NCBI GenBank assembly: GCA_020343875.1
Contig: CP070811.1
Coordinates: forward strand, 4,596,205-4,660,204
Source of the DNA: Anaerolineales bacterium
Lineage (GTDB): Bacteria; Chloroflexota; Anaerolineae; 4572-78; NAK82
DNA length: 64,000 nt
Direction: 5' to 3'
Positions 43,254 through 47,918 of the stretch are shown here, in pieces (positions within the stretch are counted from its first letter, which is position 1; each line of letters opens with the position of its first letter). The position numbers and the translations under genes are program-made. A model generated the notes under the pieces. That model worked only from the letters and a program-made list of their open reading frames with translations. It did not search any database and was not told the origin of the DNA.

Positions 43254-46124
43254 TTGCGACGTTACTTGTCGGTTTTTCTAATTCTGTGCATCTTGCTGAT
43301 GCTGATGCCCGTTCCGTCGTCAGCCCAGGCTGATCCAGTGGCAGAGATACTGGCCGGCATGACGGTGGAGGAACGGGTAGGACAGATTTTCATCGTGCCC
43401 TTCGTCGGCCCCAATGCGGAGGATAATTCTAGCATTGCTGAACTTGTCGTCGAGTACAAGATCGGCGGCGTCGTGCTGCTGGCCGCCAACCAAAACTTCA
43501 GCAACGACCATACCACGCCACGGCAGGTGGCTCAGCTGGCTAACCAGTTGCAGGGCCTGGCGCTGGCGGGCCCCCGCCCGCAAGCAGGCACGTCCGCGCC
43601 GGTCCCCCTGCTGGTGGCCATAGATCATGAGGGCGATGGCTGGCCCTATACCCGCATCACGGGTGGCGCTACGCCTTTGCCCAGCCCGATGTCCATCGGC
43701 GCCACATGGGATCCAGCCAATGCCGAAGCGATCGGGGAGATCGTGGGTCGGGAGCTCTCGGCGATGGGGATCAACTTGCTACTGGGCCCCACCGTGGATG
43801 TGCTCAACGACCCACGCCCCACCGCGCGAGGAGACATCGGCATAAGGGCTTTTGGGGGCGACCCCTTCTGGGTAGGGACCATGGGGCGGGCCTATATTCG
43901 CGGCGTCCATCGGGGTAGCAAGGGCCAAGTCGCTACTGTGGCCAAGCACTTCCCGGGCCACGGTGGCAGCGACCGCTTGCCCGACGACGAAGTGGCCACC
44001 GTGGACAAGTCTTTCAGCGAGTTACGCCGCATCGAGCTGGCTCCTTTCTTCCAAATCACTGATCTGAGCGACGGGGATGAGGGGACAGGTGTCACCGATA
44101 CGCTTATGTCCAGCCACATCCGCTATCGTGGTTTTCAGGGAGACATCCGCCAATTCACCGCGCCCTTCAGCTTTGACCCCGAAGGCATGGCCACGATGTT
44201 GAGCCTGTCGGAGTTCATCCCGTGGCAGGACCGAGGGGGGCTCATCGTCAGTGACGCGTTGGGTGTGCCCGCTGTTCGTAAATACTTCGATCCGACGCTC
44301 AGCACCTACCCCCATCGACGTATTGCCAAAGAGGCATTTTTGGCCGGCAACGACTTGCTCATCCTGGCTCAATTTGACCTGAACAACTATTGGCCGGATC
44401 AGTTCGAGAATATCAAAGACACCATTCTCTTCTTTAGAAATGAGTACCGTACCAACCTAACCTTTGCTGCCCGCGTGGATGAGGCGGCTGGTCGGATTCT
44501 GCGCCTGAAGCTCAAACTGCATCCTGACCCGACCCAGGGTTCGGTGTTGGTGGATCCCGAGGCGGCAATGGCCGTCGCTGGCGGCGGGCGAGAGGTGGTA
44601 AATGAAATTGCTCGACGGGCATTGACGCAGATCTACCCTGATGGCCGAGCAGGAACATCTTGGACCGCGGCGCTGCCAGCTCCACCTCGCCTGGACGAGA
44701 CTTTGCTGATCATCAGCGACGTCAGAGAGGTGCGCGATTGCTATGATTGCCCAATCTACAACGCGGTGCCTGTGGATGCGGTGCAGCAGACTATACTGCG
44801 TCTGTATGGGCCGGACGGCACGGGACAAGTGTCGCCCGAGCGGATCAGTTCGCTCACTTTTGCTCAGCTCAAGTCGTTGCTGACCGGCCCATTGAATCTG
44901 CTAGCCGAGGAGCCAGCGCTTCCAGACAGGGTGGCGGGCGAGGATTATGTGCCAGCCGAGGAAGTCTTGGCCCGTGTCCAGGCCGCGGATTGGATCATCT
45001 TCGTCACGCTGGACTTGAACACCGCGCGCTATCCCGAATCCGATGCGATGAAACTCTTTTTGGCTCAGGGGGCGCCTGTTCTATTCGACAAGCGGTTGGT
45101 GGTGCTGGGCCTGAATGCGCCCTACTACCTGGACACGACGGAGATCAGCAAGCTGGACGCCTACTTCTGCATTTATAGCAAAACCGAGCCGTTTGTTGAG
45201 ACAATCGTACGCGCTCTTTTTGGGGAAGTGACGGCTGACGGAGCGTCGCCGGTGAATGTGGAGGGGGTGGGTTACGATCTGGGCATTCAGCTCTCGCCCG
45301 ATCCAGATCAAGCCTTGGCCGTGAGGCTGCTGGAAGAGCTACCTGAGACCCTGTTGCCGCCGGCGACAGTGCGGGTAGGCGCCGGCCCAGTACTTGACCG
45401 CAACGGCCACCCGGTGCCTGATGGTACGACCGTCACCTTCGTGGCCATCTACCGGAACGGAGGTGGGTCACTGGTATCAGTTACCGCTGCGACGATGGAT
45501 GGGGTGGCAGAGGCGAGCTTCAGCCTGCCTGACCCGGGTCGGGTGGAGATCATAGCCGAAAGCGGGGGGGCGAGCAGTCAGCGCCCTCTGCCGGTGACGA
45601 TCGCTGCTCCACCCACCCCCACGCCGACCACGACGCCTACGCCTTCCCCGACATCTACACCCACCCCGACCGCACTTCCGAGTGCCACGCCGAGTGCTAC
45701 GTCAACTCCCACCGCCACCTCTGTGCCTGTGCCTACCCCAACGCCCACAGCAGCACCCCCCTTGGTTCCGGAAGGGGAAACTGGGGAAAAGGACGAGAGC
45801 GGGGGGCTGCGGGCGGTGGACGGGCTGGACTTGCTGGCTGCGCTGAGCGCGACGCTGCTGGCTGGAGTCACTGGCTTCAGCGTACGACAGCGAACCGGAC
45901 GGTCCGCCTCAAGGCAAGTGCGGCTGGGGCTGCTGGTGCTTATTGGAGGGCTGGCTGGCTATCTGCTGTATGGCACGGGCTGGCTGCGCCCGGAGCTGTG
46001 GCTGGTTCCAGAAGTAGCATCTAGGTTGGTTGTGGGGCGTCTTACGGTGGCAGCCCTGGCCTTTCTGTCAGGATTGGCTTCGTTGGTGCTGGAGCGGCCG
46101 CTGGATCCTGACGATAGGCATTAG
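43254..46124 (+). CDS. Membrane-anchored glycoside hydrolase family 3 protein
   Basis: A 956-residue exported enzyme. A signal peptide (1-24) precedes a GH3 N-terminal barrel (about 27-390) with KHFPGHGGSD and the nucleophile Asp of LIVSDALG. The loop after KHFPGHG lacks the D-x-H dyad of NagZ-type N-acetylglucosaminidases, so the acid/base is unclear. An alpha/beta sandwich follows (about 450-680), then an invasin-like beta domain (about 700-790), a Thr/Pro-rich linker (about 793-840) and three C-terminal membrane segments. The TTG start has AGGTGA upstream. The substrate, perhaps cell-wall or extracellular glycan, is not determined. Confidence 0.88.
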   Translation: MRRYLSVFLILCILLMLMPVPSSAQADPVAEILAGMTVEERVGQIFIVPFVGPNAEDNSSIAELVVEYKIGGVVLLAANQNFSNDHTTPRQVAQLANQLQGLALAGPRPQAGTSAPVPLLVAIDHEGDGWPYTRITGGATPLPSPMSIGATWDPANAEAIGEIVGRELSAMGINLLLGPTVDVLNDPRPTARGDIGIRAFGGDPFWVGTMGRAYIRGVHRGSKGQVATVAKHFPGHGGSDRLPDDEVATVDKSFSELRRIELAPFFQITDLSDGDEGTGVTDTLMSSHIRYRGFQGDIRQFTAPFSFDPEGMATMLSLSEFIPWQDRGGLIVSDALGVPAVRKYFDPTLSTYPHRRIAKEAFLAGNDLLILAQFDLNNYWPDQFENIKDTILFFRNEYRTNLTFAARVDEAAGRILRLKLKLHPDPTQGSVLVDPEAAMAVAGGGREVVNEIARRALTQIYPDGRAGTSWTAALPAPPRLDETLLIISDVREVRDCYDCPIYNAVPVDAVQQTILRLYGPDGTGQVSPERISSLTFAQLKSLLTGPLNLLAEEPALPDRVAGEDYVPAEEVLARVQAADWIIFVTLDLNTARYPESDAMKLFLAQGAPVLFDKRLVVLGLNAPYYLDTTEISKLDAYFCIYSKTEPFVETIVRALFGEVTADGASPVNVEGVGYDLGIQLSPDPDQALAVRLLEELPETLLPPATVRVGAGPVLDRNGHPVPDGTTVTFVAIYRNGGGSLVSVTAATMDGVAEASFSLPDPGRVEIIAESGGASSQRPLPVTIAAPPTPTPTTTPTPSPTSTPTPTALPSATPSATSTPTATSVPVPTPTPTAAPPLVPEGETGEKDESGGLRAVDGLDLLAALSATLLAGVTGFSVRQRTGRSASRQVRLGLLVLIGGLAGYLLYGTGWLRPELWLVPEVASRLVVGRLTVAALAFLSGLASLVLERPLDPDDRH

Positions 46125-46137
46125 CCAGGGAGTCGGG

Positions 46138-47205
46138 CTAGATCGGCCCAATGAGGCCGAGGGTCATGGCCAGAGCCAGGCTCAGCAAAGCCAGTGCGAT
46201 GCCGATGAGCCACAAGTTTTGGCCGAAGATCACGCGCCAGCCAGCATTCCAAGATACTGTGGCTGGTGCACCTGGGGGAGCGATAGGTCCAGGTTTGCCG
46301 GTAAGCGCGGCCTGCCACTCGCCGATGCTGGTGGGGCGTTCATGCGGGTGCAGCGCCATTGCCAAGAGAATGCTCTCTTCAAGGGCAGGTGCGAGTGCCG
46401 GGTTGATGCGCCGGGGCGGGATAAGGACGCTGGGGTTCAGAAAGCGAGCCTGGGCGCTGGGTGGCGCCTGCCCGGTCAGCAGGTGGTACAGAGTGGCCCC
46501 CAGTGCGTACAAATCCGAGCGGGGGTCGGTGTGGCCGATTTCGTCTACATATTGTTCCATAGGGGTGTAGGGCAGGCTACCAACCCCATGCAGACCAGTC
46601 ATGGTCTGGGGGTCGTCGGGGTCCAACGGTTTGACCAGGCCAAAGTCTACCAGCTTCACCCGGCCTTCAGGAGTAAGCTTGATGTTGGCTGGTTTAACGT
46701 CCCGGTGTAGCACAGGGGGTTTTTGGTTGTGTAGGTAGCTTAGGGCGTCGCAAAGTTGGGTTGCCCAGTCCATTACCTTAGCCTCACCCAAAAAACGATC
46801 TTGGCGGTGGGCGTCGGCTGCCATCTGATGTAAGTCTGGACCGGAGACATAGTCCATCACCAGGTAGTCGCGGTCGCCCGCGGAAAAATAGTCGCTTACC
46901 TTGGGCAGATTGGGATGATCCAGCCGGGCCAGGGTGCTGGCTTCCCGGTGAAATTGGTCACGCATGGCCTGTACTGCCCGATCGCTCAGACCAGGCAGGA
47001 GCCGCGTCTCTTTAACGGCGCAGCGACGGCCGTCCAGCCGGTTATCGTCGGCCAGGTATACGGCTCCCATTCCACCGCTGCCGATGAGGCCAATAATTCG
47101 ATATCGCTGGTACAAGGTGGTACCGGGTTCAAGGTGGCCGGTCAAGTTACGAAACCTGGTTAGAACTCGAAGTGTGAAGCATAAGCATCTGAGGCGTATA
47201 TGCAC
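46138..47205 (-). CDS. Ser/Thr protein kinase with C-terminal membrane segment
   Basis: Up to 355 residues from a GTG at 47205; a TTG at 47145 (AGG upstream) may be the true start because homology begins there. The kinase domain (about 30-290) has the P-loop GSGGMGAVY, catalytic Lys in CAVKET, HRDVKPANIKL and DFG, and ends with HPHERPT. A single membrane segment forms the C-terminus (about 333-352), with no extracellular sensor. It is divergent from an FHA-winged-helix gene starting 62 bases away, which could bind its phosphothreonine products. Confidence 0.92.
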   Translation of the reverse strand: MHIRLRCLCFTLRVLTRFRNLTGHLEPGTTLYQRYRIIGLIGSGGMGAVYLADDNRLDGRRCAVKETRLLPGLSDRAVQAMRDQFHREASTLARLDHPNLPKVSDYFSAGDRDYLVMDYVSGPDLHQMAADAHRQDRFLGEAKVMDWATQLCDALSYLHNQKPPVLHRDVKPANIKLTPEGRVKLVDFGLVKPLDPDDPQTMTGLHGVGSLPYTPMEQYVDEIGHTDPRSDLYALGATLYHLLTGQAPPSAQARFLNPSVLIPPRRINPALAPALEESILLAMALHPHERPTSIGEWQAALTGKPGPIAPPGAPATVSWNAGWRVIFGQNLWLIGIALALLSLALAMTLGLIGPI

Positions 47206-47221
47206 AACTCTCTACACCTGA

Positions 47222-47250
47222 AATGTACCAGTACCCTGATGTTCTGTCAA
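47222..47250 (-). promoter_or_regulatory. Consensus promoter for the Ser/Thr kinase gene
   Basis: On the minus strand, TTGACA (47250-47245) and TACATT (47227-47222) are separated by 17 bases. Transcription would start near 47215. It overlaps the upstream region of the divergent FHA gene. Confidence 0.65.
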
Positions 47251-47267
47251 GCGGAGGTGCGTTTGAG

Positions 47268-47918
47268 ATGAATGAACTCGGACGTGAACCGGGCTTACTG
47301 GTGTGGCAAGACGGTGACCTGATTAAAGATCAATGGGTCTTGAATCGAGCCACGATGACAATAGGCCGTGCACCAGACTGCGATGTGCGACTTGACTCGC
47401 GGTGGGTCTCACGCACGCATGCCCTTATCCGGATAGAGGGGAATCATTACGTGCTGGAGGATATGGGCAGCAAGAATGGTGTTTTCGTCGGCGGCCAGCG
47501 GGTGGCTCAGCCGCGACCCTTGGAGGATGGAGACCGGATTCAAGTCGCACCCGGCCTGGAGCTGACTTTTGTAGATAGCGAGGCAACTGCACCCCTACCG
47601 GGGCGGCCGGGCCCGGGCCTGAGCTTGGATCGAGCCGAGCGACGGGTGCTAGTAGGCGGGCGGGAGTTGGTACCACCTCTGTCTATAGCTCAATACGATT
47701 TCCTGGCGCTGCTGGCGGAGGAACCAGGACGGGTTTATAGCCGGCAGGAGGTCATCTTGTCTGTCTGGCCCGGTGTGGAACCGTCAGGGGTCAGCGACGA
47801 TGCTATTGATGCCCTGGTGCGGCGGCTGCGCCAGCGCCTGAGCGAGATGGAACCGGGCCACGAGTATGTAGTCACGGTGCGGGGGTACGGGTTCCGCCTG
47901 GATTTGGGCAAGGGCTGA
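47268..47918 (+). CDS. FHA domain fused to OmpR-type winged-helix transcriptional regulator
   Basis: A protein of 216 residues from the ATG at 47268 with GGAGGT upstream. The FHA domain (about 15-100) has the phosphothreonine-binding residues of IGRAPDCDV, WVSRTHALI and GSKNGVFVGG. A short linker leads to an OmpR/PhoB winged helix (about 125-212) with YDFLALLAEEPGRVYSRQEVI and DDAIDALVRRLRQRL. The order FHA then winged helix differs from EmbR (winged helix, BTAD, FHA). It probably reads threonine phosphorylation by the divergent kinase and controls genes directly. Confidence 0.9.
   Translation: MNELGREPGLLVWQDGDLIKDQWVLNRATMTIGRAPDCDVRLDSRWVSRTHALIRIEGNHYVLEDMGSKNGVFVGGQRVAQPRPLEDGDRIQVAPGLELTFVDSEATAPLPGRPGPGLSLDRAERRVLVGGRELVPPLSIAQYDFLALLAEEPGRVYSRQEVILSVWPGVEPSGVSDDAIDALVRRLRQRLSEMEPGHEYVVTVRGYGFRLDLGKG

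Follow-up and report, generated by a model that had tools for sequence, protein, structure and literature searches.

A divergent Ser/Thr kinase and FHA-winged-helix regulator next to an exported GH3 protein in an Anaerolineales bacterium: a putative phosphothreonine-based transcription switch

We analysed a locus within a 64,000-nucleotide stretch of Anaerolineales DNA (the window), in which a Ser/Thr kinase gene and a small regulator gene lie head-to-head and a third gene, encoding an exported glycosidase-like protein, lies tail-to-tail with the kinase. An earlier note, made from the letters alone, had described a kinase with only a C-terminal membrane segment and a divergent regulator in which an FHA domain with intact phosphothreonine-binding residues precedes a winged helix. 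Pfam finds both proteins in this arrangement, with the kinase on the minus strand and the FHA-Trans_reg_C regulator on the plus strand. The glycosidase-like protein was recognised as a locus member by clustering of neighbouring proteins. The features are as follows.

43254-46124, plus strand: exported GH3 glycosidase-like protein, tail-to-tail with the kinase (Pfam PF00933, 6.8e-41)
46138-47139, minus strand: Hanks-type Ser/Thr kinase (Pfam PF00069), likely start TTG 47139
46150-46206, minus strand: single C-terminal hydrophobic (predicted transmembrane) segment of the kinase
46597-46605, minus strand: activation-loop T-x-T, candidate site of autophosphorylation and FHA docking
47222-47250, minus strand: predicted kinase promoter, TTGACA-17-TACATT
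47268-47918, plus strand: FHA and OmpR-type winged-helix regulator, likely start ATG 47268
47358-47546, plus strand: FHA domain (Pfam PF00498, 1.9e-22)
47586-47588, plus strand: codon of linker Thr T107 (in FVDSEATAPL), candidate phospho-acceptor
47679-47900, plus strand: OmpR/PhoB-type winged-helix DNA-binding domain (Pfam PF00486, 1.9e-14)

Because GGAGGT at 47253-47258 precedes the ATG at 47268, and the ATG at 47223 lacks a Shine-Dalgarno sequence, the regulator most likely starts at 47268 and comprises 216 aa. A GTG at 47205 would give a kinase of 355 aa, probably an overlong reading: the frames of the two closest orthologs open only from residue 18 (L017) or 21 (L022) of the window kinase, and conservation begins at about residue 27 of the 355-aa reading, the earlier residues being variable. 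The likely start is TTG 47139 (codon 47139-47137, about 333 aa), at a place matching the ortholog frames. With both starts revised, the intergenic region spans about 47140-47267.

The kinase matches Pkinase with 123 bits (1.9e-35; cut-off 31.7), and its catalytic Lys, HRD and DFG are conserved among orthologs. In the activation loop, the first Thr of the T-x-T is present in 54/54 orthologs and the second in 53/54, with Ser in the remaining one. Hydropathy shows one hydrophobic segment, at the C-terminus, in the window protein and in 51 of 55 orthologs, which agrees with the membrane topology first described. The protein lacks an extracellular sensor domain; nothing of any size lies beyond the transmembrane segment. 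The model for PASTA kinases of the PknB/Stk1 type (NF033483) scores 191.1 bits over the kinase part only, below its cut-off of 450.

The regulator consists of an FHA domain followed by a Trans_reg_C domain (53.9 bits; cut-off 26.2), and the PDB matches of the latter are PhoB and other OmpR-family chains. We aligned 71 homologs that span several classes of the phylum and share 29-76% identity with the window protein. The FHA residues for phosphothreonine binding (G33, R34, S48, H51 and N70) are indeed intact, being invariant in 71/71 homologs, as are S68 and G71. T107, in the linker just after the FHA domain, is likewise Thr in all 71. An AlphaFold2 model built with the 71 sequences (mean pLDDT 91, pTM 0.53) predicts an FHA sandwich at residues 9-102 and a winged helix at 118-212, joined by a linker of low confidence (about 103-117; pLDDT of about 67-73 over residues 101-120), with no further domain in the 216 aa. 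In Foldseek searches the FHA domain finds those of OdhI and GarA as its best matches, with EmbR also scoring high. From the alignment and the model, T107 in its seemingly flexible linker is the best candidate phospho-acceptor, and the combination of this invariant Thr with an intact domain for reading phosphothreonine offers the most promising clue to the mechanism. Its invariance may also be structural. Several other FHA proteins of the source genome carry Thr-containing tails, so a linker Thr may be a general feature of kinase substrates.

A consensus scan of the intergenic region returned a single promoter-like site, directed toward the kinase, against 0.7 expected by chance, which is weak alone. 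However, TTGACA in the kinase orientation occurs in 44 of 55 orthologous intergenic regions (expected 3.6, maximum 8 in 200 Markov samples), and the conserved form is TTGACA-17-TAnnnT, mostly with a 17-bp spacer before a -10-like box. This phylogenetic conservation indicates that TTGACA-17-TACATT, to which the kinase promoter had previously been assigned, is real. The same note suggested cross-control, given that this promoter lies just upstream of the regulator start. Although the promoter itself is conserved, orthologs place it anywhere between 34 and 742 nt from a fixed point in the regulator gene; overlap with the regulator translation start thus occurs only in close relatives, and we rejected a conserved overlap. 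No direct-repeat operator of the OmpR winged-helix type was seen by eye in the intergenic alignments, and cross-control of the kinase by the regulator is possible without specific support. A conserved CTGTCAA, which we take to resemble a PhoB half-site, is the reverse complement of the kinase -35 box at the 17-bp spacing, and inspection of the same alignments by eye revealed no second PhoB-like half-site next to it. An operator shared with the GH3 gene was rejected as well, since only 1 of 11 GH3 genes has the CTGTCAA motif upstream. For the regulator, the consensus scan gave no promoter on the plus strand. In several intergenic regions, at L028, L022 and L025, the part nearest the kinase is taken up by short tandem repeats, for example of ACAAATG.

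Of 298 genomes in the source genome's class, 236 encode FHA-winged-helix proteins (E <= 1e-15). We chose 40 class loci among the better-scoring matches of the ranked list and away from contig ends, so that this sample is not strictly random. A kinase lies head-to-head with the regulator in 27 of them and on the same strand just upstream in 4, and the remaining 9 have no kinase within about 4 kb. The earlier note had asked whether the architecture is conserved next to kinases or widespread without them; since 31 of the 40 sampled regulators adjoin a kinase, the latter does not hold. For comparison, the source genome (5.35 Mb) encodes 28 kinases and 21 FHA domains, and we estimate that a given gene adjoins a kinase by chance in about 1% of cases. 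Its four compact FHA-winged-helix paralogs comprise three that are head-to-head with a kinase and a fourth with a kinase just downstream. In other classes, 14 of 20 regulators are head-to-head with a kinase, and these partner kinases are longer and of different types. One is fused to a NACHT domain (L113:128-3802) and another to PD40 beta-propeller repeats (L101:4748-7390), and regulators of this kind may therefore receive input from different sensors.

Several genomes with a lone regulator encode a same-family kinase (54-58% identical) elsewhere, often still beside a GH3 gene. Four genomes (G127, G232, G222 and G270) keep the regulator with no same-family kinase at 1e-60, and their lone regulators retain the FHA residues and the linker Thr. 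Among other neighbours, 14 loci (L127, L128, L083, L084 and others) encode, about +900 nt after the regulator and in its orientation, a radical-SAM protein that resembles HemW (CxxxCxxC, as judged by eye), and 12 further loci have a CpXC-type protein lying opposite. A 566-aa protein with no adjoining kinase (L117:5836-7533) has about 360 N-terminal residues without a Pfam match ahead of FHA and a winged helix.

Kinase and regulator diverge together: across 54 pairs their distances correlate with a Mantel r of 0.892, against 0.234 for the best of 5000 permutations, although species phylogeny contributes to this correlation. Four genomes carry two copies, and in them the kinases split into the same two groups as the regulators (distances about 0.32-0.35 within and 0.50-0.57 between groups), so the two genes were duplicated together.

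The duplication extends to the third gene. The source genome has only three GH3 matches, two of which sit at this locus and at its paralog, which means that all three genes were duplicated. GH3 adjoins the kinase in 20 of the 29 class-sample loci that have a neighbouring kinase and enough sequence, with 17 in convergent order beside a divergent pair and 3 on the same strand. It also stays beside the kinase where the regulator has moved away (L139, L141-L144). No GH3 gene was found near the regulator-kinase pairs of other classes, which confines the link to the source genome's own class. The protein has a signal-peptide-like N-terminus, an N-terminal GH3 domain with a KHFPG motif and C-terminal hydrophobic segments, and its best PDB matches are N-acetylglucosaminidases. 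The NagZ beta-N-acetylhexosaminidase model (NF003740) gives a partial match of 64.1 bits, below the cut-off of 207, and what we presume to be the counterpart of the NagZ-type DSH loop apparently reads SDRxP. The presumed nucleophile Asp is missing in three of 27 relatives (L069, L085 and L086), so some copies may be binding proteins rather than enzymes. The conserved presence of an exported GH3 protein, which the earlier note did not connect with the pair, also makes the description of the kinase and regulator as a one-step switch uncertain.

The kinase-regulator pair looks like a dedicated signalling switch, and it probably sits within a three-gene, envelope-related locus. We modestly favour a reading in which the kinase is dedicated to the FHA transcription factor, the switch is phosphorylation of T107, and the system is linked to GH3. 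In this model, the membrane-anchored kinase would autophosphorylate its activation-loop T-x-T, and the regulator's FHA domain would dock on the resulting phosphothreonine. The kinase would then phosphorylate T107 in the linker between the FHA domain and the winged helix. Phosphorylated T107 could bind the FHA domain in cis, or in trans within a dimer, repositioning two winged helices and thereby switching DNA binding. The exported GH3 protein probably connects the pair with sugar metabolism, either of the cell wall or outside the cell, acting as a target, a source of the signal or a sensor. Behind this reading stand the observed domains, invariant residues, conserved adjacency, co-divergence, promoter conservation and GH3 synteny. 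Against a dedicated pair stand the nine of 40 sampled loci with no kinase nearby, the four genomes that keep regulator and T107 but no same-family kinase, the different kinase type and missing GH3 in other classes, and the failure to find an operator repeat. A more ambitious version, which we hold only tentatively and regard as rather doubtful, unites the trio in one envelope-signalling system: an exported, membrane-anchored GH3 protein would sense or process a wall sugar and signal through the membrane to the sensor-less kinase, leading to phosphorylation of the regulator's linker Thr.

Among the alternatives, an unlikely one is that the FHA domain binds the autophosphorylated kinase and thereby holds the regulator at the membrane. 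The regulator would be freed when the kinase is dephosphorylated, without itself being phosphorylated, and T107 would be structural. Such tethering would suit the invariant FHA ligand residues, the anchoring of the kinase by one transmembrane segment, its conserved T-x-T, and an FHA domain most like that of GarA, which was crystallised with PknB. An invariant Thr in a flexible linker, however, fits modification better than structure, and some genomes keep the regulator without this kinase family. We give still less credence to the idea that shared ancestry explains the arrangement, with the regulator reading phosphothreonines of several kinases or other proteins and the pair kept together only through common expression from the intergenic region. 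The many kinases and FHA domains of the source genome and the persistence of regulators without a neighbouring kinase are compatible with it. Yet kinases and regulators co-diverge and duplicate jointly, and the fact that regulators of other classes lie head-to-head with kinases of an unrelated type points to a coupling that either recurred or was kept for long. Finally, a phosphate-independent FHA domain acting in dimerisation or protein docking, with the winged helix answering another signal, is very improbable. An FHA domain can serve in oligomerisation, a role proposed in EspM (PMC7002343), but all phosphate-contacting residues are invariant over 71 divergent sequences.

The textbook example in which a Ser/Thr kinase controls a transcription factor by way of an FHA domain is EmbR/PknH, which, to our knowledge, is regarded as peculiar to mycobacteria. 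The version described here is smaller, has its domains in reverse order and is retained by most genomes of the class, normally beside its kinase. The pair would be a cleaner model, in which phosphothreonine replaces the phospho-aspartate receiver ahead of the same DNA-binding domain, and GH3 suggests a testable role for the sensor-less kinase in an envelope-sugar response. If the trio does form one system, it would parallel a two-component system, but with three parts and with phosphothreonine as its basis, and would be conserved throughout a bacterial class. Our search of the open literature found no paper on this kinase/FHA-winged-helix pair.

Each component has known relatives from which it departs. 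The GH3 protein shares an N-terminal GH3 domain with KHFPG with N-acetylglucosaminidases of the NagZ/YbbD type, and differs from them in its C-terminal hydrophobic segments, the altered DSH loop and the loss of the Asp in some relatives. The regulator has the OmpR-type winged helix of PhoB/OmpR response regulators; those carry a receiver domain with phospho-Asp, whereas the regulator has no Response_reg match and carries FHA instead. By both sequence and fold, the closest FHA domains are those of GarA and OdhI, partners of PknB/PknG, which bind to phosphothreonine on the kinase and receive their own phosphate in a flexible tail (PMC8546545). In contrast to the regulator, GarA and OdhI have no DNA-binding domain and control metabolic enzymes, and their acceptor Thr is N-terminal, whereas the candidate T107 lies in a linker C-terminal to the FHA domain. 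EspM, a mycobacterial ESX-1 regulator, combines an N-terminal FHA domain with a C-terminal helix-turn-helix DNA-binding half (PMC7002343). That half is of another, longer kind, and EspM's reported context is ESX-1 secretion rather than a neighbouring kinase; the EspM equivalog model (NF052403) reaches 23.7 bits, to the FHA part, against an NCBIfam cut-off of 550. The closest parallel in working is EmbR, whose activation by PknH and other kinases depends on recognition by its FHA domain (PMC4601284). Both transcription factors join an OmpR-type winged helix to FHA in one protein, and the FHA domain of EmbR (2fez, 2ff4) matches that of the regulator. Unlike PknH, the kinase here lacks an extracellular sensor domain, and a GH3 gene forms part of the locus. 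The contrast drawn in the earlier note also proved correct: EmbR is ordered winged helix-BTAD-FHA, whereas Pfam finds in the regulator only FHA and then Trans_reg_C. Judged by its sequence, the regulator shares with EmbR the intact FHA residues and a probable way of working, but its domain order and lack of BTAD mean that it is not of the EmbR (SARP) type.
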